A DNA stretch of 64,000 bases from Psychroserpens sp. (lineage in GTDB: Bacteria > Bacteroidota > Bacteroidia > Flavobacteriales > Flavobacteriaceae), in the NCBI GenBank assembly GCA_017643165.1, contig JAEPNY010000001.1, positions 496,001 to 560,000 on the forward strand. Direction: 5' to 3'. Shown piece after piece: positions 41,142 to 62,656 of this stretch. The notes below the pieces were generated by a model that searched no databases, was not told the DNA's origin, and saw nothing but the letters and a program-made list of their open reading frames with translations. Made by a program: the position numbers and the translations under genes. The first letter of the stretch is position 1; each line of letters opens with the position of its first letter.

Positions 41142-41227
41142 TTCGTCGACACTTATCTGCCACCCGTAGACACTTAAATTAGATTAATCGAAATAAACAC
41201 TTAGTTAGCACTTGTAGTAGTATTTTG
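41142..41227 (+). promoter_or_regulatory. LytTR-type site A: three direct half-sites before the H-NOX operon
   Basis: Half-sites CGTCGACACTT (41144), CGTAGACACTT (41165) and AATCGAAATAA (41186) step by exactly 21 bp. A -7-like TATTTTG starts at 41221, 79 bp after the TTCGTC at 41142. The promoter-proximal half-site lies 34 bp before the -7 box. The downstream operon encodes the proposed regulator, so this would be autoregulation. Confidence 0.7.
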
Positions 41228-41253
41228 CTTCATTGAACCACATATACCCTCTA

Positions 41254-41667
41254 ATGAAAAACGCACTAAAAATACTATTAATTGAAGATGATACTATTGA
41301 AGTGATGAAGCTGAATCGAGCGACGTCATCGTTAAATATGAATCACCAAATAATAGAAGCTAAAAATGGAGAAGTAGCTTTAGAACTATTAAAGGACCAT
41401 TCAGCTTTACCAGATATTATTCTATTGGATTTAAACATGCCTAAAATCAATGGTATCGAGTTTCTTAGAATATTAAAGAATGATGATCGTTTAAAATACA
41501 TTCCAACAATTATCTTGACGACTTCAAATAATCAAAAAGATCTTTTAGAATGTTATAAAATCGGAATTGCCGGATATGTTTTAAAACCTTTAAAATATGA
41601 AGAATACGTTTCGAAAATAGAGAAATTATTAGCATATTGGCGTATGAATGAATTAATTGAAGCCTAA
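41254..41667 (+). CDS. Single-domain response regulator (Rcp1-like)
   Basis: A 137-residue receiver with no output domain: LLIEDDTIE, phospho-acceptor Asp59 in ILLDLNMPKINGIEFL, ILTTSNN and KPLKYEEY. A TTG further upstream (41233) is in frame, but the ATG at 41254 starts one short turn before the first strand. It lies one base before the H-NOX gene. A free receiver beside a kinase, an Hpt protein and a DNA-binding regulator suits the middle step of a phosphorelay. Confidence 0.92.
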   Translation: MKNALKILLIEDDTIEVMKLNRATSSLNMNHQIIEAKNGEVALELLKDHSALPDIILLDLNMPKINGIEFLRILKNDDRLKYIPTIILTTSNNQKDLLECYKIGIAGYVLKPLKYEEYVSKIEKLLAYWRMNELIEA

Positions 41668-42206
41668 TGAAAGGAATAATATTTACAGAGTTTTTAGAAT
41701 TGGTCGAAGATAAGTTTGGCCTAGGTATGGTTGACAAGATTATTTCGCAATCTGAACTGGATTCAGGAGGAATTTATACCTCTGTAGGAACATATGAGTT
41801 TTCAGAAATGTTGCAACTTATATCTCATTTAAGTAACAATACAGATATTTCAGTAGATGATCTATTAATGGTCTATTCAGAGCACTTATTTTCAGTGCTT
41901 GTTAAAACACATCCAGATCTGGTCAAGCATTATAAAGACCCTATGGATCTTTTAGCTTCTATTGAAAATCACATTCATGTAGAGGTTCAGAAGATTTATC
42001 CTGAAGCACAATTGCCAACATTTGAACTTGAAGAACGTACCGAAGAAAAAATGGTTATGGTCTATAAATCGGAAAGAGCCTTATATATGTTAGGTAAAGG
42101 CTTAATGCTAGAAACATTTAAACTATTTGATGTTCCTGTAACCATAGATTATGAAAAATTAAATGATAAAGGTACCGAGGTGCGATTTATTGTAAATAAA
42201 CAATGA
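41667..42206 (+). CDS. H-NOX (heme NO/O2-binding) sensor protein
   Basis: A 179-residue stand-alone H-NOX protein. It starts MKGIIFTEFLELVEDKFG, followed by GGIYTSVGTYEFSEM. The proximal heme ligand is His104 (ENHIHVEVQKIYPEA). The heme-propionate motif YxSxR is complete (Tyr133, Ser135, Arg137 in VYKSERAL). H-NOX proteins bind NO, and in anaerobes O2, and control kinases or cyclic-di-GMP enzymes encoded next to them. Stop and start overlap with both neighbours, so it is co-translated with the kinase. Whether it senses NO, O2 or CO cannot be fixed from sequence. NO is most likely. Confidence 0.9.
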   Translation: MKGIIFTEFLELVEDKFGLGMVDKIISQSELDSGGIYTSVGTYEFSEMLQLISHLSNNTDISVDDLLMVYSEHLFSVLVKTHPDLVKHYKDPMDLLASIENHIHVEVQKIYPEAQLPTFELEERTEEKMVMVYKSERALYMLGKGLMLETFKLFDVPVTIDYEKLNDKGTEVRFIVNKQ

Positions 42207-44182
42207 ATAAGGAAGAGGTAGATATCTTAAAACGTGCTTTAGCACGTGAAAAAGCTGCGCGAAAAGCTGCGGAGAAAATTCTCGAGGAGAAGTCTGCCGA
42301 ACTCTATGATCTTACCCAAGAGCTTCAATCTTCAAATGAACAATTAGAGAAATTAGTTAAAGAGAAAACATCAGAACTGCGTGGTGTTTTCGAGAATATT
42401 ATTGATGCTTATGTGGTCATCGATCTCTGGGGAAATGTGCTGAAGATGAATGATTCCGCTGTTTCTCTTTTAGGTTATAATAACGAAATACAAGACTTTA
42501 ATCTTCTAGAGTTAGCAGATGTTTCAGAGGCCGAACATATAATGAATGGATTTCATAGTATTAAATATGAGGGCTCTATAACCGATTTCCAAGTTAAGAT
42601 CAACACTAAAAATAGAGGTCAGAGATTGGTTCATATCAATGCTAGTCTCATTATTGACGAAGAAAATAATCCTATAGCGGCACAGGGCATCGTTAGAGAT
42701 ATTACGCAGGAGAAAGCTGCTGAAAAACAGCTTATAGAGTCTGAGAATAGACTGGCGACATTGATTCAGAATCTTGATAGTGGTGTCTTATTGGAAGATG
42801 AGAATCGAACCATTGCTTTGACTAATAAAAAGTTTTGTGAGCTGTTCAAGATTCCGTTAAACCCAGAGGAGTTGATTGGTCAAGATTGCACGAATTCAGC
42901 AGAAGATAGTAAGGTGCTTTTTGAAGAACCTGAAGCATTTGTGGATCGCATTAATTCTATAATTGAAAAACGTGAGCTAGTATTAGGTGACGAATTGGTT
43001 ATGGTTAATGGAACCGTGTTAGAGCGTGATTATATTCCAATTTTTGAAGACTCCACATACAAAGGGCATTTGTGGAAGTACAAAGATATTACCCTTAGGC
43101 AAAAATATAGACAGAGTATTGAAGCAGAACGCGAAAAATATAGTAATATCATTGCTAATATGAACCTTGGATTGATCGAAGTTAGTGTTGATGATGAAAT
43201 ACTGATGGCTAATAATAGTTTTTTAGAGATGTCAGGTTACTCGGAAGATGAGCTAATTGGTCAAATCGCTCATAATACCTTCGCTACCGATGATTCAAAA
43301 AAGAGAATTGTAAATGAAAATTTAGATCGTAAAAAAGGTTTGTCAAACTCTTATGAAATCGAAGTGTATAGAAAAGATGGTGTATTGAGAAATTGGTTGA
43401 TTAGTGGTGCACCTAATTACAGCTTAAACGGAGAAGTTGTTGGATCAATAGGAATTCATTTAGATATTACAAATCTTAAAAACCTTCAGCGTCAAAAAGA
43501 AACGCTATTAAAAGAGTTAGAAAAGTCTAATGATGAACTTCAGGAATATGCGCATATTGTTTCTCATGATTTGAAATCTCCGCTAAGGAGCATCAATGCA
43601 TTGGTTAGTTGGATCAAAGAGGATAATAATGGGAAATTGGATAAGTTAAGCTTACAGAATTTTGACCATATCGAAACGACCTTGGAAAAGATGGAATTAT
43701 TGATTTCAGATGTTTTGGAATATTCTAGTATTGGTTCGAACGTCACCGCAAAGAACGATATTGATTTGAATGAACTAGTAGAAGATCTTAAACGAATTCT
43801 ATTCGTACCTGATCATATCAGTATTAATATTTTGAATCCATTACCTGTTATAAAAGGAGAAAAAACAAAATTACAGCAATTGTTTCAGAATTTGATTAGT
43901 AATGCTATTAAGTTTAATGATAAAGCACATGGTATAATTGAAATAGATGTAAAAGAGAAATCTTCATATTATCAATTTTCTATCAGTGATAATGGCGTAG
44001 GAATTGATAAACAGTATCATGACAAGATTTTCAAAATTTTCCATGCTCTGAATAAAAGTAAAGATTCTACCGGTATTGGATTATCTATTGTAAAGAAAAT
44101 TATTGACCTCTATAAGGGTGAGATTTGGATCGAATCAGAAGAAGGTCTGGGAACCACATTTCACTTTACACTGAAAAAGTAA
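42203..44182 (+). CDS. Cytosolic triple-PAS histidine kinase, partner of H-NOX
   Basis: A 659-residue soluble kinase. It has an N-terminal coiled coil (ALAREKAARKAAEKILEEKSAELYDL, residues 10-60), then three PAS domains (about 68-175, 185-300 and 315-430). HisKA has phospho-acceptor His455 (YAHIVSHDLKSPLRSINAL). The ATPase domain has NLISNAIKFN, DNGVGID and STGIGLSIV. No membrane helix is present, so it receives internal signals, most directly from the H-NOX protein whose gene overlaps by 4 bases. It has no receiver of its own, so it must phosphorylate a separate one. Confidence 0.92.
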   Translation: MNKEEVDILKRALAREKAARKAAEKILEEKSAELYDLTQELQSSNEQLEKLVKEKTSELRGVFENIIDAYVVIDLWGNVLKMNDSAVSLLGYNNEIQDFNLLELADVSEAEHIMNGFHSIKYEGSITDFQVKINTKNRGQRLVHINASLIIDEENNPIAAQGIVRDITQEKAAEKQLIESENRLATLIQNLDSGVLLEDENRTIALTNKKFCELFKIPLNPEELIGQDCTNSAEDSKVLFEEPEAFVDRINSIIEKRELVLGDELVMVNGTVLERDYIPIFEDSTYKGHLWKYKDITLRQKYRQSIEAEREKYSNIIANMNLGLIEVSVDDEILMANNSFLEMSGYSEDELIGQIAHNTFATDDSKKRIVNENLDRKKGLSNSYEIEVYRKDGVLRNWLISGAPNYSLNGEVVGSIGIHLDITNLKNLQRQKETLLKELEKSNDELQEYAHIVSHDLKSPLRSINALVSWIKEDNNGKLDKLSLQNFDHIETTLEKMELLISDVLEYSSIGSNVTAKNDIDLNELVEDLKRILFVPDHISINILNPLPVIKGEKTKLQQLFQNLISNAIKFNDKAHGIIEIDVKEKSSYYQFSISDNGVGIDKQYHDKIFKIFHALNKSKDSTGIGLSIVKKIIDLYKGEIWIESEEGLGTTFHFTLKK

Positions 44183-44184
44183 CT

Positions 44185-44502
44185 ATGGAAAAGCCAAATT
44201 TATTTTATATACAAAACATGTTAGGAGGTGATACAGGATTTGAGCAAAAACTTATTAATATCATAAAGGCCGAATTTCCAGAAGAGCAGCAGACGTATCA
44301 GAATTGTATCTCGAGTAAAGATTATAAGGCAACATCTGAAATCGTACATAAACTTAAACATAAAATTAGTATTTTAGGGCTAGAGAAAAGTTATCAGGTT
44401 GCCGCTGCATATGAATTGAAACTTCTTGATGGTCAATTAGATTTAAAAGAGGAGTTCGAATTAATTTTAGCAACCATAACTAATTATTTGCAAGAGATAT
44501 AA
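44185..44502 (+). CDS. Hpt phosphotransfer protein
   Basis: A 105-residue all-helical protein with a histidine phosphotransfer motif (EIVHKLKHKISILGL, likely phospho-His55). The usual H-x-L-K-G-S is H-K-L-K-H-K here. The ATG at 44185 lies 2 bases after the kinase stop. A longer frame from 44125 would overlap the kinase and is unlikely. It should shuttle phosphate from a receiver to the LytTR regulator. Confidence 0.82.
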   Translation: MEKPNLFYIQNMLGGDTGFEQKLINIIKAEFPEEQQTYQNCISSKDYKATSEIVHKLKHKISILGLEKSYQVAAAYELKLLDGQLDLKEEFELILATITNYLQEI

Positions 44503-44509
44503 TTAGCCT

Positions 44510-45220
44510 ATGAATTATATAATTATTGATGATGAAGCTACAGCTCGAGCCATCATCTCACAACTATGCTCCAATATCGAAGACCTCAATGTGATTGAGG
44601 AATTCCCTAACGCAATCCAAGCCATTAAATATTTAAACCAAAACGAAGTAGATCTGATCTTTTTGGATATACATATGCCGGATTTTACGGGCTTTGATTT
44701 CATTGAAACGATAAAGAATCCACCGCGAATTATTCTCACGACTTCAGATTCTAATTTTGCGATCCAGGCATTTGAATACGATTGTATAGTAGATTATCTA
44801 GTAAAACCAATTACTCAGGAACGTTTTAATAAGGCCATTCAAAAGGCTAAATCGCAACAGGTTCAAAGCGCTCCATATCAGTCAGCTGAACCCGTAGAAA
44901 CGACCTCGGGAAATGATCTTTATGTCAATATTGATCGACGTTTGATCAAAATAGATATTCCTAGTATCTATTTGGTTGAGGCTAAAGGTGACTACATCTA
45001 TGTCAAGGCCGAAAATCAAAACTATACGGTTCACTCAACATTAAAGAAGATCGAAGATAAACTCCCAAATGATCTCTTCTTAAAAGTGCATCGTTCTTAC
45101 ATTATCAACGTTAGTAAGATTATTGATATTGAGGATAATAGCGTTCTCATAAAAAAAGATGTAATTCCTGTAAGTCGCTCCAATAGACCTGAGTTAATGA
45201 AGCGATTAAACCTCTTATAA
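44510..45220 (+). CDS. LytTR-family response regulator
   Basis: A 236-residue regulator. The receiver has YIIIDDEATAR, phospho-acceptor Asp53 (FLDIHMPDFTGFDF), ILTTSDSN and LVKPITQERF. The LytTR DNA-binding domain (residues about 140-236) has IPSIYLVEAKGDYIYVKA, HSTLKKIEDKL, FLKVHRSYIINVSKI and VIPVSRSNR. LytTR proteins bind two direct repeats about 21 bp apart. Precisely such sites occur five times around it, including its own operon promoter. It is the proposed master activator of the exopolysaccharide locus. Confidence 0.93.
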   Translation: MNYIIIDDEATARAIISQLCSNIEDLNVIEEFPNAIQAIKYLNQNEVDLIFLDIHMPDFTGFDFIETIKNPPRIILTTSDSNFAIQAFEYDCIVDYLVKPITQERFNKAIQKAKSQQVQSAPYQSAEPVETTSGNDLYVNIDRRLIKIDIPSIYLVEAKGDYIYVKAENQNYTVHSTLKKIEDKLPNDLFLKVHRSYIINVSKIIDIEDNSVLIKKDVIPVSRSNRPELMKRLNLL

Positions 45221-45241
45221 CTTATCCAAAAGACGCGTCAA

Positions 45242-45308
45242 TTCGTCTACACCTATTGTCCATCCATCGAAATATAAGGCATTAAAAACTTAATGACCCA
45301 TAGGTTTG
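45242..45308 (+). promoter_or_regulatory. LytTR-type site B and promoter of the ugd unit
   Basis: TTCGTCTACACC (45242) and the second half-site CATCGAAATAT (45265) are 21 bp apart. A perfect -7 box TAGGTTTG (45301-45308) lies 59 bp after the start of the motif. Transcription from about 45315 excludes an upstream ATG at 45293 as the ugd start. Confidence 0.75.
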
Positions 45309-45337: not shown

Positions 45338-46696
45338 ATGAAAGTAGCAATAGTTGGAAGCGGATATGTAGGATTAGTTACAGGCGCTTGTTTTTCTGAA
45401 GTGGGAATTGACGTTGTATGCGTCGATGTAGATAAGGAGAAGATTCAAAATTTGAATAACGGGATCATTCCTATTTACGAACCGGGTTTAGAAGAAATGA
45501 TCACTAGAAATATGGCCAAGAAACGATTAAGCTTTTCTACCAGTTTAGCCGATGCCATTGTCGATTCTGAAGTTGTATTTATTAGTGTTGGTACGCCACC
45601 TGATGAAGATGGTAGTGCTGATCTAAAGCACGTTATTGCAGTTGCAAGAGAATGTGGTAAACATATGGATGACTACAAATTGATTGTTACCAAAAGTACG
45701 GTTCCTGTAGGCACGTCGTTAAAGGTTAAAAATGCAATAAAAGAAGAATTATCAAAGCGTAAAGCAGCAGTGGAGTTTGATGTAGCTTCAAACCCAGAGT
45801 TCTTAAAAGAAGGCGCCGCAATTGAAGACTTTTTAAAACCAGATCGTATTGTGATTGGAACAGAAAGTTCAAGATCAGAGAAGCTCTTGAATAAATTATA
45901 CAAACCATTTACATTAAACGGTCATCCTATCATATTTATGGATATTGTATCAGCTGAAATGACTAAGTACGCTGCAAATTCGATGCTAGCTACTAAGATT
46001 AGTTTTATCAATGATATTGCAAATCTTTGTGAGATCGTTGGTGCAGATATCAATAACGTGAGGAGAGGTATTGGATCTGATACGCGAATAGGTAAGAAAT
46101 TCATCTATCCTGGAATTGGATATGGAGGATCTTGTTTCCCTAAAGATGTTAAAGCTTTAATTAAAACGGCAAGTGAAAATCAATATGAGCTAAAAGTACT
46201 CAAAGCTGTCGAAGCCGTTAATAATGCTCAAAAATCAAAATTATTCGAAAAGATCTTTGCACATTTTGATGGGGATTTAAAAGATAAAACTGTAGCGGTT
46301 TGGGGACTTTCATTTAAGCCACAAACCGATGATATGCGCGAAGCACCATCACTAGAAATTGTAAAGAGATTATTAGACGCAGGAGCTAATGTGAAAGCCT
46401 ATGATCCTGTAGCGTTAGAGGAAGCAAAATGTCATTTTGGTGATACTATAGGCTATTGTACAGATCAGTATGAATCTTTAATAGATGCTGATTGTTTAGC
46501 TGTATTGACAGAATGGTCTGAATTTAGAGTACCAAACTTTAAGATTATGAAACGTTTGATGAATGCCTCGGTAGTATTTGATGGACGTAACATTTATGAC
46601 AAAGAAGAAATGGAAGCCGCAGACTATACATACTATTGTATCGGTGTAAGAACAGAAAAGAGACATAGATCCAACGAGTTACAATTGGTTGTGTAA
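45338..46696 (+). CDS. ugd: UDP-glucose 6-dehydrogenase
   Basis: A 452-residue enzyme that oxidises UDP-glucose to UDP-glucuronate with NAD+. It has the N-terminal Rossmann motif VAIVGSGYVGLVTGACF, VFISVGTPPDEDG, and the catalytic-cysteine loop GIGYGGSCFPKDVKAL. The C-terminal domain has VAVWGLSFKPQTDDMREAPS. An in-frame ATG at 45293 overlaps the promoter, so the start is 45338. It supplies precursor to the next gene and to uronic-acid-containing polysaccharide. Confidence 0.95.
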   Translation: MKVAIVGSGYVGLVTGACFSEVGIDVVCVDVDKEKIQNLNNGIIPIYEPGLEEMITRNMAKKRLSFSTSLADAIVDSEVVFISVGTPPDEDGSADLKHVIAVARECGKHMDDYKLIVTKSTVPVGTSLKVKNAIKEELSKRKAAVEFDVASNPEFLKEGAAIEDFLKPDRIVIGTESSRSEKLLNKLYKPFTLNGHPIIFMDIVSAEMTKYAANSMLATKISFINDIANLCEIVGADINNVRRGIGSDTRIGKKFIYPGIGYGGSCFPKDVKALIKTASENQYELKVLKAVEAVNNAQKSKLFEKIFAHFDGDLKDKTVAVWGLSFKPQTDDMREAPSLEIVKRLLDAGANVKAYDPVALEEAKCHFGDTIGYCTDQYESLIDADCLAVLTEWSEFRVPNFKIMKRLMNASVVFDGRNIYDKEEMEAADYTYYCIGVRTEKRHRSNELQLVV

Positions 46697-46726: not shown

Positions 46727-47668
46727 ATGATCAAGAAGAGAGTACTTGTCACTGGAGGTGCAGGTTTTGTTGGATCACATCTTTGTGAAAGACTATTAGA
46801 GGAAGATAATGAAGTGTATTGTATGGATAACTTCTTTACAGGTCAGAAGCGTAATGTTCTTCATCTACTGAACAACCCATATTTTGAACTTATTAGACAT
46901 GACGTCATAAATCCATTTATGATCGAAGTTGATGAGATATATAATTTGGCTTGTCCGGCTTCTCCAGTTCATTATCAGTATAATCCTATAAAAACCATAA
47001 AGACCTCTGTAATGGGCGCCATTAACATGTTAGGCTTAGCCAAAAGAGTAAATGCCAAGATTCTTCAGGCTTCAACAAGTGAAGTGTATGGTAATCCAAT
47101 GGTACATCCGCAACCAGAATCTTATTGGGGAAATGTAAATCCGATTGGAGAGCGTTCCTGCTATGATGAAGGAAAGCGTGCCGCAGAAACTTTATTCAGG
47201 GATTATCGCCATCAAAATAATGTTCATACTAAGATTGTTAGAATTTTCAATACTTATGGGCCTCGAATGCATCCAAATGATGGGAGAGTAGTGTCGAACT
47301 TTATCGTTCAAGCCATACAAAATAAGGACATTACAGTTTACGGTAAAGGAGAACAAACAAGAAGCTTTCAATATGTAGATGACCTTATAGAGGGTATGGT
47401 GAGGGCTATGAATACGGATCAATCTTTTACAGGTCCTGTTAACATTGGTAACCCAGATGAATTTAGGATCATTGAATTAGCGGAAAAGGTTATAAAATTG
47501 ACGAATTCTAAATCAAAAATTGTCTATCAACCTTTGCCTTCTGATGATCCTATGATGAGAAGGCCAGACATTGAGTTTGCCAAACGTGAATTAGGTTGGG
47601 AGCCAAAAATTAAACTAGATGAAGGGTTGGATAAAACCATTTTCTTCTTTAAAGAGTTGATTAAGTAA
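46727..47668 (+). CDS. uxs: UDP-glucuronate decarboxylase (UDP-xylose synthase)
   Basis: A 313-residue short-chain dehydrogenase-type enzyme: NAD motif [11 protein letters not shown], catalytic Tyr-x3-Lys in [12 protein letters not shown], plus [27 protein letters not shown] and [16 protein letters not shown], all characteristic of the Uxs group. It converts UDP-glucuronate to UDP-xylose. Together with ugd it predicts xylose (or its derivatives) in the polymer. Confidence 0.92.
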
Positions 47669-47682: not shown

Positions 47683-48069
47683 ATGAAAAAAAAGATACTT
47701 GTAATAGACGATGAGGTAACAATGACAACCTTGCTTCAGTTTTTTCTAGGTGAAACCTATAGTATTCATGCTGTGAGCTCAGGTAAAGAGGCAATAACAT
47801 GGCTAAATAGTAATATACCAGATCTGATTATTAGTGATATTCAAATGCCAGAAATGAACGGATTTGATTTTTTAAAAGCATTACGTTTGATAGGTTATAC
47901 AAAGCATACACCGGTGATTATGCTTTCCGGGAAATCAGAGAGTAAAGAGCGTGTAAAGTGTTATCAGCTAGGTGCTCAAGATTATTTGACTAAGCCGTTT
48001 AATCCTCAAGAATTGGAAGAATTAGTTAAAAAGAATCTATTTCCAATTCATTATGCCAGTGCCTGGTAG
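47683..48069 (+). CDS. Second single-domain response regulator, inside the polysaccharide unit
   Basis: A 128-residue receiver only: VIDDEVTMT, phospho-acceptor Asp52 (IISDIQMPEMNGFDFL), MLSGKSES and LTKPFNPQEL. It lies between the sugar-nucleotide genes and the initiating transferase, 32 bases or fewer before it. It may link the phosphorelay to the enzyme's pseudo-receiver domain. That is inference from position. Confidence 0.92.
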   Translation: MKKKILVIDDEVTMTTLLQFFLGETYSIHAVSSGKEAITWLNSNIPDLIISDIQMPEMNGFDFLKALRLIGYTKHTPVIMLSGKSESKERVKCYQLGAQDYLTKPFNPQELEELVKKNLFPIHYASAW

Positions 48070-48101
48070 TTGCAGTGAGTATTAAACAAAACTTAATTAA
48101 G

Positions 48102-49292
48102 ATGAACATTTTATACATAGGAAAGGAATTATACTTCACCGAGGAATTTCTTGAAAATAGTAGTATTGAGCTTATCCATAAGAATAGTGCCTTAGAAGCA
48201 TTAAAATTATTAAGATCGAAGATTTCTGTGGATGCTATTATTGCACACTATGATTTGTCAGGAAATGATGGTTTATTCTTTTATGAAGAATTAAAACATG
48301 AATTTAATAGTATTGAAGCTCCTTGTCTTTTATTATTTGATGAATTTAATGTAGAAGCCTTTAAACGAGCCTTCGAATTAGGGGTGGATGATTGTTTTGT
48401 GATACCATCCACTGATCAAACTAAATTGATTGAACGTATTAAATATTTATATGAGTCGATTCATGATAAAGAATCCATAGGATCTATTCAAAAGGATCGC
48501 GTAAATTATAAGATTCCTTTATCAAAACGAATTTTTGATATTGTAACAGCCTCAATGGCCTTAATTATACTGTCCCCCATTCTAATTTTAACGATGTTGG
48601 CAATTAGACTAGAGTCCAAAGGAAAGGTTTATTATATAGCCAAACGAGTAGGCCGTAAAACCTTTGATTTTTATAAGTTAAGATCTATGAGAAATGGAGC
48701 AGATAAACTTTTAAAAGAATTAGCAGAAACGAAAAATCAATATAATAATAATGAGGAGGTCTCTTCATCTATAGAAATGACTGTTAAGTGTCCACGCTGC
48801 AGTGCATTACCAATCGGAGAATACTGTTCACCACTCAATTATGAAGGTATTGAAAAGATATGCGATTATATGTATCATGAACAACGGCGTTCAATTCAAA
48901 ACTACAGTTCGAGTTTTATAAAAATTGTTGATGATCCTCGAATCACACGAATAGGGAAGTTTATTAGAAATACAAGTATTGATGAATTACCGCAATTGAT
49001 CAATGTCATTAAAGGGGATATGTCTTTGGTTGGAAATCGTCCATTACCTGTATACGAGGCTGAATTATTAACTCAAGATCAGATGTCAAAACGATTTTTG
49101 GCGCCAGCTGGAATTACAGGCTTATGGCAAGTAGAATTGAGAGGTAAGGGCGGGGATTTGTCTGAAGAGGACCGAATGAATCTGGACAATGCTTATGCCG
49201 ATCATTTTATTGGAAATAACTATTCCTTCTGGTTTGATTTAAAACTGTTGCTAAGAACTGTTCCCGCATTATTTCAGAAAAGTACAGTATAG
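48102..49292 (+). CDS. Initiating phosphoglycosyltransferase with N-terminal pseudo-receiver
   Basis: A 396-residue protein. Residues 1-125 follow a receiver fold (ILYIGKELYFTEEFL, VDAIIAHYDLSGNDG, ELGVDDCFVIPSTDQTKLIERI), but the phospho-acceptor Asp is His49. Residues about 145-396 are a WcaJ/ExoY-type polyprenyl-phosphate sugar-1-phosphate transferase: a membrane helix (RIFDIVTASMALIILSPILIL), KLRSM, DELPQLINVIKGDMSLVGNRPLP and GITGLWQVELRG. An insertion after KLRSM holds four cysteines (230, 233, 242 and 254), a possible zinc ribbon. It starts the polymer repeat on undecaprenyl phosphate. A GTG at 48075 is an alternative start. Confidence 0.9.
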   Translation: MNILYIGKELYFTEEFLENSSIELIHKNSALEALKLLRSKISVDAIIAHYDLSGNDGLFFYEELKHEFNSIEAPCLLLFDEFNVEAFKRAFELGVDDCFVIPSTDQTKLIERIKYLYESIHDKESIGSIQKDRVNYKIPLSKRIFDIVTASMALIILSPILILTMLAIRLESKGKVYYIAKRVGRKTFDFYKLRSMRNGADKLLKELAETKNQYNNNEEVSSSIEMTVKCPRCSALPIGEYCSPLNYEGIEKICDYMYHEQRRSIQNYSSSFIKIVDDPRITRIGKFIRNTSIDELPQLINVIKGDMSLVGNRPLPVYEAELLTQDQMSKRFLAPAGITGLWQVELRGKGGDLSEEDRMNLDNAYADHFIGNNYSFWFDLKLLLRTVPALFQKSTV

Positions 49293-49356: not shown

Positions 49357-49414
49357 TTGTTTTATTTATAAGTATGTCAAGTCCATATAATACTTGGTCA
49401 TTTGGAATCTTCTA

Positions 49415-49481
49415 TTCGTCTACACTTACTGTTCATCCATCGAAATATAATAGAATCCTCACTATTCTGAGGGTATGTTTG
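49415..49481 (+). promoter_or_regulatory. LytTR-type site C and promoter of the export unit
   Basis: TTCGTCTACACTT (49415) and CATCGAAATAT (49438) repeat with a 21-bp period. The -7 box TATGTTTG (49474-49481) is exactly 59 bp after the motif start, as at sites B and D. Confidence 0.75.
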
Positions 49482-49524: not shown

Positions 49525-50259
49525 ATGAAAAAGTTATCCAAATTTATAATGGCATTGATTTTTTTATGCTTAACCTATTTTGACGGTTATTCTCAAGACA
49601 GTCCTTTGGTTGAGCAAGAGCCAGAATCTTATAAGCTGCTCATTCCAGAATTAGGCGTATTAATTGATTCGGCATTGGCTAATAATGGGATGCTAAATTA
49701 TAGAATTGATGAAATCGAAGTTAAAAAAGCGAACCTAAAAGCAAAGCGTCGTAATTGGACTCGAAATTTCGGAATTCAAGCAGATACAAGATACGGCACT
49801 TTTGATAATTTTTCGAATAACGTAAGTGGGCCTAATACCGTCACTTTAGCGAGTACTACTACACAATTTAATTATGGCGTTGGTCTGTATTTAAAGATTC
49901 CAGTTTTTGATGTTTTTAATCGCAGATCTGAAATAAAACAGGCTAAGACTGAAATATCTCAAGCCAAGAATTTGGTAAAATTTCAGGCAGATGAGATAAG
50001 AGAGACTGTGATTAGGCAATATGAGGATCTACTTTTAAGACAGAATTTATTTGAGATACAGGCCATTAATTTAGGAGATGCGAAAGCTAATAAAGCAATG
50101 GCAGAGAAAGAATTTAGAAATGGGATAATTCCTGTTTATGAATATGTGAGAATTTTGGATATCACTTCTGGGATTGCTAGAGAATATGAAAAGGCGAAAT
50201 CAGAACTGATGTTATCAAAAAAGTTATTAGAGAACTTAACGGGTATGGTCATAAACTAA
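49525..50259 (+). CDS. Half-length TolC-family outer-membrane protein
   Basis: A 244-residue protein with a signal peptide ending GYSQ. Two long heptad-rich helices flank a short barrel segment (GILIDSALANNGML, AKRRNWTRNFGIQADTRYG, FNYGVGLYLKIPVFDVFNRRSEIKQAKTEISQAKNLVKFQADEI). This is one of the two repeats of a usual TolC (about 420-450 residues). It could form hexamers instead of trimers. It heads the export unit before the Wzc-like gene. Confidence 0.75.
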   Translation: MKKLSKFIMALIFLCLTYFDGYSQDSPLVEQEPESYKLLIPELGVLIDSALANNGMLNYRIDEIEVKKANLKAKRRNWTRNFGIQADTRYGTFDNFSNNVSGPNTVTLASTTTQFNYGVGLYLKIPVFDVFNRRSEIKQAKTEISQAKNLVKFQADEIRETVIRQYEDLLLRQNLFEIQAINLGDAKANKAMAEKEFRNGIIPVYEYVRILDITSGIAREYEKAKSELMLSKKLLENLTGMVIN

Positions 50260-55619: not shown

Positions 55620-56590
55620 ATTATAGAAGTATAAAAGATTTAAACGAAACTATATTAAGGGAACTGCATGTTATCCCAAGAGATATCGATCTTATTGTCG
55701 GTGTACCTCGAAGTGGAATGATGCCAGCGAATTTAATGGCATTATACCTTAATCTTCCATATACAGATATTCATTCATTCATAAATGGCTATATCTACAA
55801 ATCGGGAGCACGACGACAGTTTTTTGATAATTCAGAATACAAAAAGATCCTAGTAGTTGATGACAGTATAGCATCAGGTTCAGCTCTTATAGAATGTAAA
55901 CAAAGTTTAGAACATTTGGATGGGAAATATGACTTCAAATACTGTGTGGTCTATACTACTCCTGAAAAAGAGAACTTAGCAGATTACGCGTTGGAGATTG
56001 TCTCAACACCACGCTATTTTCAATGGAACGTATTTAACCACACAACCTTAGAGAAAGCTTGCTTTGATATTGATGGCGTGCTTTGTGTGGATCCAACAGA
56101 AACCCAAAATGATGATGGTCCACAATACATCTCTTTTCTACTGAATGCCGCGCCACTTTACATACCTGGTAGTAAAATAGGAACATTAGTAACCTCGCGA
56201 TTAGAGAAATATCGAGAAGAAACGGAAACATGGTTAAAAAATAATGGAGTGCGTTATGACAAATTGGTTATGCTTAATCTGCCTGATATGAAAGCAAGAC
56301 AAAAAGCAAATTGTCACGGGTCTCATAAAGCAAAAGAGTATAAATCCGGCAAATACAATCTCTTTGTGGAGAGTGATCTAAAACAAGCAATAGAGATTAA
56401 TAAACTCACTAAAAAACCAGTCTATTGTACGCAAAATTTTGAGATGATCTATGATGCTGAATCGATATCATACAACATAAAAAGTGGTAAATACCTTCCA
56501 TTTTTACGTCGATATGCGCTGCACCTTAGAAGTTATCTAAAGGATTTGAAATCAAAATCTCAATTATTAAGGAAAGTACTTTCAGCGTAA
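55616..56590 (+). CDS. Phosphoribosyltransferase-HAD-like fusion protein
   Basis: A 324-residue two-domain protein. Residues 1-140 are a type I phosphoribosyltransferase fold with the PRPP loop KILVVDDSIASGSALIE and VGVPRSGMMPANLMA. Residues about 148-290 start with a HAD-type motif CFDIDGVLCVDPT and go on to GTLVTSRLEKYREETETWL and LFVESDLKQAI, as in HAD phosphatase-like proteins. I know no defined function for the fusion. It sits inside the polysaccharide unit, so it may modify a nucleotide-activated donor. Confidence 0.78.
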   Translation: MNYRSIKDLNETILRELHVIPRDIDLIVGVPRSGMMPANLMALYLNLPYTDIHSFINGYIYKSGARRQFFDNSEYKKILVVDDSIASGSALIECKQSLEHLDGKYDFKYCVVYTTPEKENLADYALEIVSTPRYFQWNVFNHTTLEKACFDIDGVLCVDPTETQNDDGPQYISFLLNAAPLYIPGSKIGTLVTSRLEKYREETETWLKNNGVRYDKLVMLNLPDMKARQKANCHGSHKAKEYKSGKYNLFVESDLKQAIEINKLTKKPVYCTQNFEMIYDAESISYNIKSGKYLPFLRRYALHLRSYLKDLKSKSQLLRKVLSA

Positions 56591-56627
56591 TTGATCAAAT
56601 AAATTATCTCCAAATAAAAGTTATAAA

Positions 56628-57830
56628 ATGGTACTACTACAAAACATATTTAAAGGCATAGAAATTGCTCTAGCTCTATACTTTGGGATGTCATGCATTT
56701 ACGTATTTATATTCTCGGTTGCTGGGCACTTTTACAAGCGACGAGATAATGATACCGAAGAAGAGTTAGGAAAGTTTGCTGTCCTAATTCCAGCTTATAA
56801 AGAAGATGAAGTTATCGTCGAAGTTGCAAAATCAGCATTACTTCAACAGTATCCTCCGAGTTATTTTGATGTAGTGGTTATAGCCGATTCTTTGAAAAAA
56901 CAGACTTTAAATAATCTTAATCGATTACAGATAAAAGTTATCGAAGTTCTATTTGAAAACAGTACTAAATCGAAGGCCTTAAACGCAGCTTTAGATCAAT
57001 TAGATCAATCATATGATTATGCCCTTGTCTTGGATGCTGATAATATAATGGAACCTGAGTTCTTAGCTAAAATCAACAAGTCATTTAGAATGGGCTATCA
57101 AATTGTACAAGGTCATAGAAAAGCAAAAAACTTAAACACACCTTTTGCCATCTTAGACGCAGCTAGTGAAGCGATTAATAATCATATCTTCAGAAGAGGT
57201 CATAGAGCCTTAGGATTGTCCTCTGGGCTTATTGGTTCTGGAATGGCATTCGACTATAAGCTCTTCAAATCGATAATGAAGCAAATTAAAGCTGTTGGAG
57301 GTTTTGATAAAGAACTTGAATTTGAGTTAGCTCAACGTAATTTAGAAATCGAGTATTTGCAAGATGCTTATGTTTTAGACGAAAAAATTCAGAGACCTGC
57401 AGAATTCTCTAACCAAAGAAGACGATGGTTAGCTACACAATTCGTATACCTCAAGCGAAATTTCATTAAAGGTTTCAATGAACTCTTGGTTAACAAGAAT
57501 ATAAACTTCTTTGACAAGGTTTGGCAATTGATCATTCCTCCAAGGGTTATACTACTTGGTGTAACGGTTGTTCTTACATTAATATATGTCTTCTTGAATT
57601 TTGTGGTAAAAATTTCTACTCAAGTTCCTGAATATGTTTGGATATCTAATTTAATAATTCTCGTTTCTACCTTCATTTTAGCACTTCCTAGGAGTTTTTA
57701 TAGACTGAATACACTAATGGCGATGTTTTCACTTCCTACAGCATTCTTTAGAATGTTCATGCTATTATTTAAGCTAAAAGGAGCAAATAGAAGGTTCATT
57801 CACACTGCACATTCTGCTATTAATAATTAA
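56628..57830 (+). CDS. Membrane GT2 glycosyltransferase (processive type)
   Basis: A 400-residue protein. One N-terminal helix, then a GT-A domain with VLIPAYKEDEVIVEV, the metal-binding LDADNIMEPEF, GSGMAFD, ELEFELAQRN and NQRRRWLATQ (the QxxRW acceptor motif), then three or four C-terminal helices. It resembles hyaluronan/cellulose-synthase-like enzymes. It probably adds a backbone or branch sugar to the lipid-linked repeat. Confidence 0.88.
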   Translation: MVLLQNIFKGIEIALALYFGMSCIYVFIFSVAGHFYKRRDNDTEEELGKFAVLIPAYKEDEVIVEVAKSALLQQYPPSYFDVVVIADSLKKQTLNNLNRLQIKVIEVLFENSTKSKALNAALDQLDQSYDYALVLDADNIMEPEFLAKINKSFRMGYQIVQGHRKAKNLNTPFAILDAASEAINNHIFRRGHRALGLSSGLIGSGMAFDYKLFKSIMKQIKAVGGFDKELEFELAQRNLEIEYLQDAYVLDEKIQRPAEFSNQRRRWLATQFVYLKRNFIKGFNELLVNKNINFFDKVWQLIIPPRVILLGVTVVLTLIYVFLNFVVKISTQVPEYVWISNLIILVSTFILALPRSFYRLNTLMAMFSLPTAFFRMFMLLFKLKGANRRFIHTAHSAINN

Positions 57831-57834
57831 GATC

Positions 57835-58989
57835 ATGAGAATAGGAATCGAGGCACAGCGATTATTTCGTCCGCATAAGCATGGAATGGATAGGGTAGCT
57901 CTTGAATTGATCAAGAATCTTCAAAAGTTAGACACGCTAAATGAATATTTTATTTTCGTGAAACCAGATCAAGATAATCAGATCATTAAGGAGACCAGCA
58001 ATTTCAAAATTGTCGAAATTCCTGGAGGGTCTTATCCTATATGGGAACAGTTCAAACTTCCTAGAGTTGCACAAAAATACAAGTGTGATATTTTGCATTG
58101 TACAAGTAACACGGCACCTATGTATCAAAGCATCCCGTTGGTTACAACTTTACACGATGTAATATTCAGCGAGACCAGTATGATCAAGCAGATTCTTAGT
58201 AGTGCCTCTTGGTACCAGAAACTTGGGAATATTTATAGAAGATTAATTGTGAATCGCGTGATTAAGCGAAGTGCACAGTTGATTACGGTATCAAATTTTG
58301 AAAAGCAAAATATAAAAGATCGTTATAGAATAAGTACGGATAAAATAGAGACTGTTTACAACGGGGTGAATTCTGATTTTTCAGCCAAAATTGACAGCAT
58401 AAAACAAGAGCGCGTTGTTAAAAAGTATAAGCTACCAGAACTGTTTCTTCTGCATATTGGAAATACTGACCCTAGAAAGAATACGAGTAGAGTTCTTGAA
58501 GCCTTTAACGAATTTATTGACTGCAGTTCAGAATCATATAAACTAGTACTTGTTGGTTTGAACGAGGACAAGTTAGACGCTCTTCTTAATGATCTAGGTC
58601 TTACCAAATTAAAGCAACATATTGTTTTAACAGGTTATGTGTCAGATGAAGATTTACCAGTAATCTTCAGTATGGCTAAAGTATTCTTATTCCCATCACT
58701 ACGCGAAGGATTCGGAATACCCATTATTGAGGCTATGGCTAGTGGTATACCTGTCATTACATCAAATACATCATCAATGCCTGAAGTTGCTGGAGAGGCT
58801 GCTTGTATCGTGGATCCTTATTGTAAAGATGATATTCTTCTAGGGATTACAAACATATTGACAAATGATCAACTTCGTCTGGAATTGGTAAAAAAAGGCT
58901 TAACACGTAGCAACGCATTCTCATGGATGAATTCTGCAACAAGCGTGTTGGAGTTATATCAACAACTATATGAAGTTAAAAACAAATAG
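57835..58989 (+). CDS. GT4-family glycosyltransferase
   Basis: A 384-residue GT-B enzyme: N-terminal GIEAQRLFRPHKHGMDRVALEL, interdomain LHIGNTDPRKNTSRVLEAF, and donor-binding FPSLREGFGIPIIEAMASGIPVITS with the EX7E pair, then MPEVAGEAA. It should retain stereochemistry and add one sugar from a nucleotide donor at the cytosolic membrane face. It starts 4 bases after the GT2 gene. Confidence 0.9.
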   Translation: MRIGIEAQRLFRPHKHGMDRVALELIKNLQKLDTLNEYFIFVKPDQDNQIIKETSNFKIVEIPGGSYPIWEQFKLPRVAQKYKCDILHCTSNTAPMYQSIPLVTTLHDVIFSETSMIKQILSSASWYQKLGNIYRRLIVNRVIKRSAQLITVSNFEKQNIKDRYRISTDKIETVYNGVNSDFSAKIDSIKQERVVKKYKLPELFLLHIGNTDPRKNTSRVLEAFNEFIDCSSESYKLVLVGLNEDKLDALLNDLGLTKLKQHIVLTGYVSDEDLPVIFSMAKVFLFPSLREGFGIPIIEAMASGIPVITSNTSSMPEVAGEAACIVDPYCKDDILLGITNILTNDQLRLELVKKGLTRSNAFSWMNSATSVLELYQQLYEVKNK

Positions 58990-58993
58990 AATT

Positions 58994-60205
58994 ATGATAA
59001 AAGGAAGAGATATAATCATTGTTGGTATTCAACCGTGGGATATTCAAATTGGAAGTAATTGCAAGAATATAGCAGTAGAATTTTCGAAACATAATAGAGT
59101 ATTGTATGTCAATCCTCCATTAGATCGCATAACTCGTTTGAAGTCGAGAAAAAGTGAAAGAATTCAAAAGCGAATTGCAGTTTCGAAAGGTCAAATTTCG
59201 GACCTTGAACAGTTAGACAAGAACTTATGGAATCTTTATCCAAAAACCATAATTGAATCTATAAACTGGATGAGTTCACCAACCTTATTCAATTTCTTAA
59301 ACAGACGAAATTCCAAATTGTTTGCCTCGAATATCAAAAGTGCTGTTGATCGATTAGGGTTTAAAGATTATTTAATATTCAATGATAGCTCAATGTTCTT
59401 GGGATTACACCTTAAGGAGTTACTTCAACCAGAATTATATACCTATTACGTTCGAGATAATTTGATTCAGGTTCCTTATTGGGCTAAACATGGCGAGCGT
59501 CTTGAACCTAAAACAATTGCATCCGCAGACGTAGTTGTGAATAATTCAGAATACTATGTGGAATATAGCGAAAGATTTAATTCAAATAGCCATATGGTGG
59601 GACAAGGCTGTGACGTCTCAATGTTTAATGATCTGAATAATGACATTCCAATTGCAGATGAATACAATTCAATAAAATCTCCTGTAGTTGGTTATGTAGG
59701 CTCTTTAACAACGCTTCGTCTTGATATAGAGCTTCTAGAATATATCGCAGAACAACGACCAAAATGGAGTATTGTATTAGTTGGACCAGAAGACGAAGAC
59801 TTCAAAAGATCTAAACTACACCAATTATCTAATGTTCTGTTTTTGGGCAATAAACCTATGAATGAATTGCCTTCATATATCAAAGGTTTTGATGTGGCAA
59901 TAAATCCTCAAGTTATAAATGAAATTACTATAGGTAATTACCCAAGAAAGATCGATGAGTATCTCGCGATGGGGAAACCAATTGTTGCCACAAGAACAAA
60001 AGCAATGGAAATGTTCGATGATCACGTTTATCTAGGTGAATCCAAAGAAGACTATATAGCGCTTATCGAATTAGCATTAATACAACACACTAAAGCTAAA
60101 GCTGAAACTAATATCAAGTTTGCATGTACTCATACCTGGACAAATAGTGTAAAAGATATTTATAAAGCAATGGAAATAACATTAAATGAAACAACATGGA
60201 ATTAG
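58994..60205 (+). CDS. GT-B glycosyltransferase (TuaH-like)
   Basis: A 403-residue protein: MIKGRDIIIVGIQPWDIQIGSNCKNIA, then VVGYVGSLTTLRLDIELLEYIAE, WSIVLVGPEDE and GNYPRKIDEYLAMGKPIVATRTKAMEMF with a Glu-based donor motif. Similar enzymes act in teichuronic-acid-like and capsule synthesis. A longer frame starts at 58970 inside the previous gene. The ATG at 58994, 4 bases after that gene's stop, is preferred. The acyltransferase gene overlaps its end by 10 bases. Confidence 0.85.
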   Translation: MIKGRDIIIVGIQPWDIQIGSNCKNIAVEFSKHNRVLYVNPPLDRITRLKSRKSERIQKRIAVSKGQISDLEQLDKNLWNLYPKTIIESINWMSSPTLFNFLNRRNSKLFASNIKSAVDRLGFKDYLIFNDSSMFLGLHLKELLQPELYTYYVRDNLIQVPYWAKHGERLEPKTIASADVVVNNSEYYVEYSERFNSNSHMVGQGCDVSMFNDLNNDIPIADEYNSIKSPVVGYVGSLTTLRLDIELLEYIAEQRPKWSIVLVGPEDEDFKRSKLHQLSNVLFLGNKPMNELPSYIKGFDVAINPQVINEITIGNYPRKIDEYLAMGKPIVATRTKAMEMFDDHVYLGESKEDYIALIELALIQHTKAKAETNIKFACTHTWTNSVKDIYKAMEITLNETTWN

Positions 60206-60810
60206 TAGCACACATAAAATCAAATAAACGATTAAAAAAGCTTGCACATTGGTCAATTTTGATACCTAATCAATCACGACCAAGATTATGGATCAAGTGG
60301 TTTGTTAATCCATTTGTTCACAAGAAGGGATTTAGATCCTGCATTCGTAAACGCACACGATTGGATGTAGTGCCATGGAATAAGTTCAACTTGGGAGAAC
60401 AATCAACTATAGAAGATTTTTCTGCAGTTAATAACGGTGTTGGTGATGTACTCATTGGTGATCGAACGAGAATTGGTCTCAGCAATACGATTATCGGTCC
60501 AGTTAAGATTGGAAATGATGTGCGATTAGCTCAAAATGTCGTCCTCTCTGGATTGAATCACAATTATGCTGAAATTGATAGCCCTATTCATGAACAAGGG
60601 GTATCTACTAAACCAATCATTATTGAGGACGAATCTTGGATAGGTGCAAATGTTGTGATCGTTCCAGGTGTAACTGTGGGAAGGCATTCAATAGTAGCAG
60701 CAGGAAGCGTAGTTACTAAGAATATTCCGCCATTTTCTGTTGCAGCGGGGAATCCTGCTCGCATTTTAAAACAATACGATTTCGTAACAAAAACATGGCA
60801 AAAAAAATAA
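60196..60810 (+). CDS. Hexapeptide-repeat acyltransferase
   Basis: A 204-residue left-handed beta-helix protein with I/V/L-x4 hexapeptide repeats (VLIGDRTRIGLSNTIIGPVKIGNDVRLAQNVVL, WIGANVVIVPGVTVGRHSIVAAGSVVTKNIP) and the ending AAGNPARILK. The catalytic His is likely in LSGLNHNYAE. It probably O- or N-acetylates a sugar of the polymer. It is 4 bases before the next GT gene. Confidence 0.9.
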   Translation: MELVAHIKSNKRLKKLAHWSILIPNQSRPRLWIKWFVNPFVHKKGFRSCIRKRTRLDVVPWNKFNLGEQSTIEDFSAVNNGVGDVLIGDRTRIGLSNTIIGPVKIGNDVRLAQNVVLSGLNHNYAEIDSPIHEQGVSTKPIIIEDESWIGANVVIVPGVTVGRHSIVAAGSVVTKNIPPFSVAAGNPARILKQYDFVTKTWQKK

Positions 60811-60814
60811 AAAG

Positions 60815-62011
60815 ATGATTATGGAATTTTTAAAATTACTTTTTTGGATTTTACTAATAATAGTGTTCTACACTTACATCGGATATGGAATAATACTTTA
60901 TGTACTTGTTAGAATTAAAAGGGCTTTTACCAATTCAAGGAATGATGTTGTCGAAATAACAGATTATCCCGAATTAACCTTATTAATTCCGGCTTTTAAT
61001 GAGCGTGATTATGTCGAAAAGAAAATGAGAAATACAATGAATTTAGATTACCCGAAAGAAAAATTAAAGATTGTTTGGGTAACTGACGGTTCTACCGATG
61101 GCACAAATAAGTTACTAGAATCTTATGATAACATCAAATTGTTTCATAATGATGAAAGAAAGGGAAAGATCAATGCTATGAATCGAGTTATGCCATTTGT
61201 AAAATCTGAACTTGTTGTATTCACTGATGCGAATACGGAGTTAGGTAAGGATTCTTTAAAGCATATAGCGAGATGTTTTAGTGATCCAAAGGTTGGTTGT
61301 GTTTCTGGTGAAAAGAGAATCGTAAATCACAGTTCTGATGCTGCTGCGGGTGCCGGAGAGGGTTTATACTGGAGATATGAATCTACTTTAAAAAAGTGGG
61401 ATGCAGAGTTGTATTCTGCTGTTGGAGCCGCAGGCGAATTGTTCGCTATAAGAACTGAACTTTATAATGAAGTAGAACAAGATACCATACTAGACGATTT
61501 TATTATTTCATTGCGAGTTGCTCAAAGAGGATATACTATCCAATATAATCCTGATGCTTATGCTATAGAAGCGGCATCTGAAAATGTAAGCGAAGAACTT
61601 AAGCGAAAAATTAGAATCTCTGCTGGAGGCATTCAATCAGTTTTAAGATTAAGATCACTTTTCAATATTTTCAAATATGGAATTCTGTCCTTTCAGTTCA
61701 TTTCACATCGTGTGTTGAGATGGACATTAACGCCATTGTGTTTGTTGTTATTAATTCCAATTTCTGCAACTTTAGCAATTAATGAGGGAGTCTTAGAGCT
61801 GGGTCTTTACTCCAGTATGTTTTGGATTCAAATGATAATGTATTTAGCTGCTTTAACAGGTTGGTTGCTTGAACATAAATCCACTAGAATCAAAATGTTA
61901 TTCGTGCCATATTATTTCTTTATAATGAACTTATCCGTCTTTCTTGGTTTTATGAGGATCATTAATAATAATCAATCTGTGAATTGGGAACGTGCTAAAA
62001 GAGCTAGTTAA
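60815..62011 (+). CDS. Membrane GT2 glycosyltransferase
   Basis: A 398-residue protein. An N-terminal helix is followed by a GT-A domain with LTLLIPAFNERDYVEKKM, VTDGSTDGT, the metal site VFTDANTEL, GAAGELFAIR and DDFIISLRVAQRG, then three C-terminal helices. The usual QxxRW is replaced by RKIRISAGG. A second ATG at 60821 is also possible. It is the last complete glycosyltransferase of the unit. Confidence 0.87.
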   Translation: MIMEFLKLLFWILLIIVFYTYIGYGIILYVLVRIKRAFTNSRNDVVEITDYPELTLLIPAFNERDYVEKKMRNTMNLDYPKEKLKIVWVTDGSTDGTNKLLESYDNIKLFHNDERKGKINAMNRVMPFVKSELVVFTDANTELGKDSLKHIARCFSDPKVGCVSGEKRIVNHSSDAAAGAGEGLYWRYESTLKKWDAELYSAVGAAGELFAIRTELYNEVEQDTILDDFIISLRVAQRGYTIQYNPDAYAIEAASENVSEELKRKIRISAGGIQSVLRLRSLFNIFKYGILSFQFISHRVLRWTLTPLCLLLLIPISATLAINEGVLELGLYSSMFWIQMIMYLAALTGWLLEHKSTRIKMLFVPYYFFIMNLSVFLGFMRIINNNQSVNWERAKRAS

Positions 62012-62046
62012 GTATATACAATACATCAAATAAGATTTCTGGACTT

Positions 62047-62502
62047 ATGAAAATTGGAATCATAATAGTGTTTAATACGATTGAAGAGGATAACTTCAAG
62101 AAGGAGCTGTTAAAGTATTTAAAAAAGGCTAAAGACATTGAATTTTGTTTGGTTAACAATGGTCAAAGTGAACATGTTCATGAGAGTTTGATTGATATTT
62201 CTGAACAACGAAAAAACGTTTGTGTTGTGAACATTAGAAAGAAGAAACTCGAAACTGCCGCTGTAAGAGCAGGTGCAAGATATATGTACAATAACTTTAA
62301 TCTTAAACATTTGGGCTTTATTAGTAAGGTCTCAGGTCAGGAGTTATTGGATACGATTGAATATTTGATAATATATCAAAAAGAGATCATCATTATGAAT
62401 ACAAATGATCAAAATACGCGTCAGGTAAAGCAAACCTTCTTCCAAAGTATTTTTTCAGTATCAAAACAAATAAGTCAGCTTAATTTGAAATCTGCCATTT
62501 GA
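62047..62502 (+). CDS. Short GT-A-like protein of the polysaccharide unit
   Basis: A 151-residue protein that looks like only the first half of a GT2 fold: MKIGIIIVFNTIEEDNF (beta1-alpha1), IEFCLVNNGQSEHVHESL (beta2), KNVCVVNIRKKKLETAAVRAGARYMY and LGFISKV. There is no DxD motif and no acceptor domain. It may be a truncated gene or a small accessory protein. The same promoter (site D) probably serves it, with a gap of 35 bases from the previous gene. Confidence 0.6.
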   Translation: MKIGIIIVFNTIEEDNFKKELLKYLKKAKDIEFCLVNNGQSEHVHESLIDISEQRKNVCVVNIRKKKLETAAVRAGARYMYNNFNLKHLGFISKVSGQELLDTIEYLIIYQKEIIIMNTNDQNTRQVKQTFFQSIFSVSKQISQLNLKSAI

Positions 62503-62569
62503 ATTCATCTCTTGTAAATCCAATGTGAAACAGAGTCACTTAAAATTCAGATAATTTTTCTGATTTCAA

Positions 62570-62656
62570 TTCGTCGACAGTAATCTGCAATCCATCGGCA
62601 GTGATCAACACACTATAGAAAAGTTTAAATATTGCTAAATGAGTAATCTAATTTTA
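62570..62656 (+). promoter_or_regulatory. LytTR-type site E before the LruC lipoprotein gene
   Basis: Half-sites CGTCGACAGTA (62572), CATCGGCAGTG (62593) and TATAGAAAAGT (62614, degenerate) step by 21 bp. A -7-like TAATTTTA begins at 62649, 79 bp after the motif start, the same as at site A. The three-repeat, 79-bp layout is shared only by A and E. Confidence 0.6.

Follow-up and report, generated by a model that had tools for sequence, protein, structure and literature searches.

A putative LytTR regulon joining an H-NOX phosphorelay to polysaccharide genes in Flavobacteriaceae

In a 64,000-nucleotide stretch of the genome of Psychroserpens sp. (contig JAEPNY010000001.1, positions 496,001 to 560,000; hereafter the window), we identified five copies of a direct repeat, each upstream of a transcription unit. 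The first unit encodes a phosphorelay with a haem nitric oxide (NO)-binding protein (H-NOX), a PAS-containing histidine kinase, an Hpt phosphotransfer protein, a single-domain response regulator (RR1) and a response regulator that combines a receiver with a LytTR DNA-binding domain. The five sites are unique in their genome, phased, conserved in relatives and co-inherited with the LytTR regulator, which, as the comparison of genomes suggests, very probably reads them. We consider it quite likely that the window holds an H-NOX-fed phosphorelay whose LytTR output switches on the relay operon as well as a polysaccharide cluster and a unit of LruC and STAS genes.

Under the proposed mechanism, the five elements would be the operators of the LytTR regulator encoded at 44510-45220, itself the presumed output of a relay formed by the H-NOX, PAS kinase, Hpt and receiver proteins. 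Phosphorylated LytTR dimers would occupy the two (or three) repeats 21 bp apart, which would end approximately 25-30 bp before the -7 box, and would there recruit the Bacteroidetes RNA polymerase. The relay operon would itself be driven from the first site and thus be autoregulated, and the four other promoters would drive sugar-nucleotide synthesis, polysaccharide export, polymerisation and glycosyl transfer, and the LruC-STAS unit. By analogy with the H-NOX systems of Vibrio, binding of NO to H-NOX would restrain the kinase, with a lower output as the result.

Direct repeats with a 21-bp period

An exact search for TTCGTC(T/G)ACA gave five matches in the window, at 41142, 45242, 49415, 54025 and 62570, all on the forward strand, which are the five places and no others that the preliminary description had named. 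Shuffling the window gave an expectation of 0.17 matches to the decamer, and none of the 100 shuffles reached five; at one mismatch, TTCGTCKACA had four additional matches in the window, which is the chance level. A longer pattern, run with up to two mismatches over the whole 3.14-Mb genome, found the five sites at zero mismatches, one place at one and two at two. Each of the five sites repeats a 16-bp unit in direct orientation with a period of 21 bp; the unit reads CATTCGTCKACACTTA in the best copies, and the second unit of sites B-E is weaker and CATCCATCGAAATA-like. The stepping of half-sites by 21 bp, also described earlier, was present in all five copies, to which we add that site A is a triple repeat. 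The sites are as follows, with scores in bits from a model described below.

41140..41197, + strand: site A, three 16-bp units at 41140, 41161 and 41182 (unit scores 16, 13 and 11.9 of 16), 24.8 bits, upstream of the phosphorelay operon
45240..45276, + strand: site B, two units with the 21-bp period, 38.8 bits, upstream of ugd
49413..49449, + strand: site C, two units, 38.8 bits, upstream of an outer-membrane export gene
54023..54059, + strand: site D, two units, 34.5 bits, upstream of a Wzy/ligase-like gene
62568..62604, + strand: site E, two units, 25.4 bits, upstream of a LruC-domain gene

The model, R1, uses sequence only; its 70 training sites come from other genomes, with none from the window genome. 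The five best R1 matches genome-wide were the five window sites, in a scan that scored 150 of 1923 first-look candidates and with training sites picked by a pattern itself derived from these five. The next-best match among those scored reached 12.7 bits and overlaps the third repeat of site A (41182). Matrix hits at scattered genes had been proposed as evidence against a common regulon; the top five in the genome were its five promoters. The shuffles, the longer-pattern scan and the R1 ranking together rule out chance as the source of the five sites.

Co-inheritance of the motif and the LytTR regulator

The exact pattern was found in 36 stretches of genome contigs, 26 of which carry Flavobacteriaceae titles (Olleya, Winogradskyella, Lacinutrix, Nonlabens, Algibacter and others). 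The 10 stretches from outside the family (Rhizobiales/Rhizobium, Caballeronia, Polyangia and Microgenomates), all inside open reading frames (ORFs) of at least 100 amino acids, were left out of further counts as chance matches. One of the 26 family stretches (L056) was also flagged as lying within an ORF, yet it is 90 bp upstream of an RR1 gene.

With up to one mismatch, the pattern occurred at 72 places in 52 of 397 family genomes, and the reversed pattern gave a single match. H-NOX was present in 145 of the 397 genomes, an ortholog of the LytTR regulator (E 1e-50) in 159, and the two together in 139. The genomes with the motif carried H-NOX in 49 of 52 cases (Fisher test, 7e-21) and the LytTR ortholog in 50 of 52 (3.7e-20), both values ignoring kinship; the two motif genomes that lack LytTR (G117 and G274) look like chance matches. 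Across the 34 genera mixed for LytTR, the motif was concordant with the regulator in 10, discordant in 0 and in neither in 24. The motif places in H-NOX genomes number 69. Of these, 54 lie no more than 30 kb from H-NOX, every one of them on the H-NOX strand, and the remaining 15 are on other contigs or farther than 30 kb away.

An R1 match of at least 22 bits was found in 11 of 12 LytTR-bearing genomes, several of which had also supplied R1 training sites, versus 0 of 12 LytTR-lacking genomes (best 18.6). A repeat-score control over 20 loci (L221-L240, 368 kb) gave, at a score of at least 26.5, 13 sites on the strand of the relay, against 2 on the opposite one and 0 in the reversed sequence. 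The LytTR domain has a mean identity of 86% over 18 sequences. At E 1e-60, at least 4 of 295 genomes across the class carried the LytTR ortholog, all four, among the matches listed, in the same family.

The relay operon and its signal

Site A is followed by RR1, H-NOX, the kinase, Hpt and, as the last gene, the receiver-LytTR regulator at the place that the preliminary description had given, now with profile matches to both domains.

41254..41667, + strand: RR1, single-domain response regulator (PF00072, E 3.5e-22), its ATG start set by comparison with relatives
41667..42206, + strand: H-NOX haem NO-binding protein (PF07700, E 9.4e-36)
42203..44182, + strand: soluble PAS-containing histidine kinase (PAS, HisKA, HATPase_c), adjoining H-NOX and a candidate H-NOX-associated kinase
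44185..44502, + strand: Hpt phosphotransfer protein (PF01627, E 8.4e-5; 23.2 bits, slightly below the curated cut-off of 24.6)
44510..45220, + strand: receiver-LytTR response regulator and candidate reader of the sites, each domain exceeding its curated cut-off (LytTR E 8.1e-21; receiver E 2.9e-20)

Among the 86 H-NOX loci fetched from the family, RR1 was found at 84, the kinase at 80, Hpt at 80 and LytTR at 76; a FIST-domain (NosP-like) protein was present at 45 and a second kinase at 44. The window relay operon is without this FIST-kinase pair. In the H-NOX protein, the haem ligand His104 and Y133 and S135 are found in all 87 aligned sequences and R137 in 86, the latter three forming the YxSxR motif; His55 of Hpt, the phospho-accepting histidine, is present in all 81 aligned sequences.

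It is possible, though we doubt it, that LytTR does read the repeats as regulatory elements while the relay answers a signal other than NO. H-NOX can bind other gases, and a different cue could reach the kinase through its PAS domains. The motif and LytTR also persist where H-NOX was not detected: of the 20 genomes of this kind, the LytTR loci of 12 were fetched, and 5 of these have retained a site, which in 4 lies 80 to 150 bp upstream of RR1 and in 1 approximately 570 bp upstream of LytTR. In favour of NO are the conservation of the haem ligand and the YxSxR motif, the many genomes where H-NOX and LytTR are found together and the presence, at about half of the H-NOX loci, of the NosP-like FIST gene, a second type of NO sensor. 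A relay that would respond to NO through H-NOX stays our preferred reading.

Promoter geometry

Bacteroidetes promoters of the sigma-A type have a -7 box with the consensus TAnnTTTG and a -33 element TTTG. The distance of 59 bp between motif start and -7 box, as first noted for sites B, C and D, holds to the base with exact boxes at all three.

45301..45308, + strand: -7 box of site B, TAGGTTTG, exact TAnnTTTG, 59 bp after the motif start
49474..49481, + strand: -7 box of site C, TATGTTTG, exact TAnnTTTG, 59 bp after the motif start
54084..54091, + strand: -7 box of site D, TATGTTTG, exact TAnnTTTG, 59 bp after the motif start

Among 162 non-redundant sites of other genomes, an exact box was found at offset 58/59 in 39 and at 79/80 in 8, a box after a triple repeat possibly counting twice, as the pattern can match both its first and its second unit. 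The boxes at 79/80 are explained by triple repeats, in which the array begins one period earlier, and the remaining exact boxes were at five other offsets in the range 0-142, once each. Allowing one mismatch, boxes at 57-60 were found at 95 of 168 sites (our own included), versus 2 and 3 in control windows shifted by ten bases in each direction. No conserved -33 TTTG was found between the motif and the -7 box in the 168 sites, so these promoters look activator-dependent.

The position of the repeats bears on the sign of the regulation. LytTR could read the sites and repress, bound near -33 and silencing the polysaccharide genes for as long as the relay stays phosphorylated, which we regard as unlikely. 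The proximal unit does end near the expected position of the -33 element, and the LytTR-domain protein CoxC is described, in excerpts of PMC11347149, as repressing from three direct repeats over a -35 box. Repression fits poorly with promoters that lack a conserved -33 TTTG and look activator-dependent. The same excerpts describe published LytTR sites as repeat pairs approximately two turns apart, with triplets in RcoM and CoxC, and most LytTR regulators as activators bound upstream of -35 (PMC11347149); the two-repeat geometry recognised in the preliminary description agrees with this. We retain activation by LytTR as the preferred reading.

Which protein reads the sites

Genomes where LytTR and H-NOX are apart help to tell the candidates from each other. 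In 5 of the 8 such genomes examined, the motif stays with LytTR: G033, G402, G248, G193 and G367 have a site before an RR1-LytTR pair and none at the H-NOX locus. At H-NOX loci that have RR1 but no LytTR (L136, L191 and L193), the motif is lost, and it is kept at LytTR.

These cases also bear on the idea that the neighbouring LytTR gene merely co-travels and that another protein, such as a second LytTR paralog or a partner of RR1 or of RR2 (a second single-domain response regulator, encoded behind site B), reads the sites. RR1 adjoins the sites in all five separated loci as well, and first-look counts gave several LytTR-like candidates per genome. On the other hand, a profile search found no DNA-binding domain in RR1, the RR1-keeping loci without LytTR are the ones that lost the motif, and direct repeats two turns apart are the geometry of LytTR itself, which makes another reader very unlikely. 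The attribution of the sites to the regulator at 44510-45220, originally proposed from the window, is well supported by comparison, through its presence in nearly all motif genomes, the concordant genera and the separated loci.

Several observations weigh against the LytTR-operator reading. A match at up to one mismatch is missing in 109 of the 159 LytTR genomes, and G373, with two LytTR genes, has no match above 14.8 bits. The five separated cases come from three genera and possibly reflect one event, and in G200, G340 and G218 the separated LytTR locus has no site of at least 26.5; G200 and G340 have a weak site at the H-NOX locus only, and G218 was counted on its LytTR locus alone, with the H-NOX locus left out. 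Seven of the 12 LytTR loci from H-NOX-less genomes are without a site, two of them on short contigs. Within the window, sites A and E show no box with up to one mismatch at offsets 58-60, and the sole -7 candidate of site E is a one-mismatch box at offset 79.

The first of these points is tempered by the repeat spacing. When the spacing was chosen freely within 14-40, the best unit pair upstream of the 86 H-NOX loci was spaced by 21 in 69 and by 22 in 6, versus 5 and 2 in shuffles; given the 21-bp spacing at most H-NOX loci, most LytTR genomes without a strict match keep a degenerate repeat there. The relay promoters of L184, L189 and L172 have a period of 22 bp instead of 21.

Hardly credible is a mobile or transcribed repeat (an RNA element or insertion remnant) without a regulator, which we rejected on the position of the motif relative to the -7 box: the element does recur between genes, but it keeps a fixed distance upstream of the box, is not found elsewhere in the genome among the candidates scored with R1, has no flanking repeat boundaries around its units and lies within ORFs of at least 150 amino acids at only 5 of 165 sites of other genomes.

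Transcription units and targets in other genomes

Sites B, C and D precede three polysaccharide units and site E a unit that extends past the end of the window. The first gene after site B, ugd, is better started at 45338, because a start at 45293 would precede the -7 box.

45338..46696, + strand: UDP-glucose 6-dehydrogenase (Ugd), first gene after site B (PF03721/PF00984/PF03720)
46727..47668, + strand: NAD-dependent nucleotide-sugar epimerase/decarboxylase-like gene (PF16363/PF01370)
47683..48069, + strand: RR2, single-domain response regulator within the polysaccharide unit (PF00072, E 9.6e-31)
48075..49292, + strand: sugar transferase (PF02397, E 2.5e-52), its N-terminal part weakly receiver-like (PF00072, E 7.2e-4, under the cut-off)
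49525..50259, + strand: OEP-type outer-membrane export gene, first after site C (PF02321, E 2e-18)
50278..52590, + strand: Wzc-like chain-length gene (PF13614; TIGR03007, E 4.7e-15, below cut-off)
52596..53966, + strand: flippase (PF01943)
54135..55619, + strand: Wzy_C/O-antigen-ligase-like gene, first after site D (PF04932)
55616..62502, + strand: phosphoribosyltransferase-like gene, glycosyltransferases and hexapeptide acyltransferase (Pfam scan of all but the two genes at 57835-58989 and 62047-62502)
62703..64000, + strand: LruC-domain secreted protein of 661 amino acids (PF16130; TIGR04456, E 3.5e-56), ending 688 bases past the window

The TIGR04456 match bears out the LruC gene that had been recognised after the fifth site. 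Two STAS-like genes come after it, beyond the end of the window; they are 38% and 33% identical to STAS in a genome of the same genus. In the unit of site B, the presence of RR2 next to a sugar transferase with a receiver-like part (47683-49292) hints at post-translational control by the same relay.

To assign targets in other genomes, we took the genes downstream of 154 sites; as the assignment favoured long ORFs and missed a STAS gene of 92 amino acids, STAS genes were sought by tblastn. RR1 is downstream of approximately 60 of the 154 sites, and 29 sites are followed by a STAS gene at a distance of up to 900 nt. Genes resembling the DUF6923/T9SS-tail protein of L157 follow 13 sites and glycosyltransferase genes another 10, and a few sites precede ugd, export, Wzc, ligase or phosphoribosyltransferase genes. 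The motif thus occurs in relatives before phosphorelay, polysaccharide and LruC/T9SS-type genes, as the preliminary description had anticipated. G308 has ugd, the export gene and the ligase gene, each with the motif and an exact -7 box, on a different contig from the relay; G226 has its relay at 37 kb and a polysaccharide cluster with motifs at 2.03 Mb. With these arrangements, the motif is tied to polysaccharide genes even when the regulator is no neighbour.

Some further sites deserve mention. Near the polysaccharide cluster of G226, a strong three-unit site is found upstream of a gene of 383 amino acids (L202, oriented 6070-6130). A cluster of STAS, flippase and glycosyltransferase genes (L157:4894-5172, - strand, and relatives) is a second recurrent target of the motif, the counterpart in the window genome being the STAS-like genes after LruC. 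In L222 and L223 (oriented 14.8-15.2 kb), from genomes where H-NOX was undetected, two additional motif copies lie right after LytTR, suggesting extra targets.

A broader reading, on which our judgement is evenly balanced, is that of a family-wide NO switch in Flavobacteriaceae. One Hpt and one LytTR protein, the latter with a near-invariant DNA-binding domain, would take their input from H-NOX and, at roughly half of the loci, from a second, NosP-like sensor. The LytTR protein would directly control the making and export of polysaccharide, secreted proteins of the LruC/T9SS type and a module of STAS, flippase and glycosyltransferase genes, and NO would in this way set the surface coat and attachment of marine Bacteroidetes.

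Relation to known systems

In Vibrio fischeri, the Hpt forms part of SypF, and the regulator at the output is not known to be of the LytTR type. Here, the Hpt is a free protein, the predicted output is LytTR, the promoters are those of Bacteroidetes and linked putative operators are found in five of them. The likeness, as given in excerpts of PMC8738867, is that H-NOX lies beside a kinase, HahK, on which it acts, and that the signal passes via the Hpt domain of SypF to a polysaccharide regulon, syp, and to biofilm. RcoM and CoxC resemble the present system in a LytTR domain on direct repeats approximately two helical turns apart, with triplets as at site A (PMC11347149); they are one-component CO sensors of Proteobacteria, whereas here a receiver-LytTR protein stands at the end of a relay. 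AgrA and other LytTR response regulators, as covered in excerpts of PMC4227749, share the receiver-LytTR protein, which would here too sit as a dimer on two direct repeats upstream of a promoter, and differ in the half-site, the Gram-positive promoters and the quorum-sensing input. A LytTR profile search of the PDB gave 3d6w only, and AgrA was not retrieved; in the excerpted text of PMC6769237, LytTR is mentioned only for the nitrosylation of AgrA.

Our literature search, with most subscription papers outside it, found no paper that joins H-NOX with a LytTR regulon or gives the output of H-NOX in Flavobacteriaceae. By that measure, the predicted LytTR output of an H-NOX relay, its operator and its family-wide regulon appear to be new. 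The role of H-NOX in Bacteroidetes is apparently undescribed in the searched literature, and the sites offer it a concrete candidate output in five named promoters. The motif allows targets to be predicted throughout a family that abounds on marine particles and makes the question of H-NOX output testable, and the shared wiring suggests that NO tunes the production of surface sugars in related marine bacteria.

The NO systems of NosP (FIST) and kinase, as far as excerpts of that literature go, are matched by a FIST protein followed by a kinase in the relay operon, together with all six other markers at 40 of the 86 H-NOX loci; they differ from the window genome in that its FIST gene, for a putatively haem-binding protein, lies outside the relay operon. 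In L157 (13271-14404, - strand), the FIST gene and second kinase lie inside the H-NOX relay operon, giving two candidate NO sensors per relay. The FIST gene of the window genome (G000:C1:1057731, L280; 45% identity) is approximately 0.5 Mb from the relay, with a kinase-like ORF behind it.

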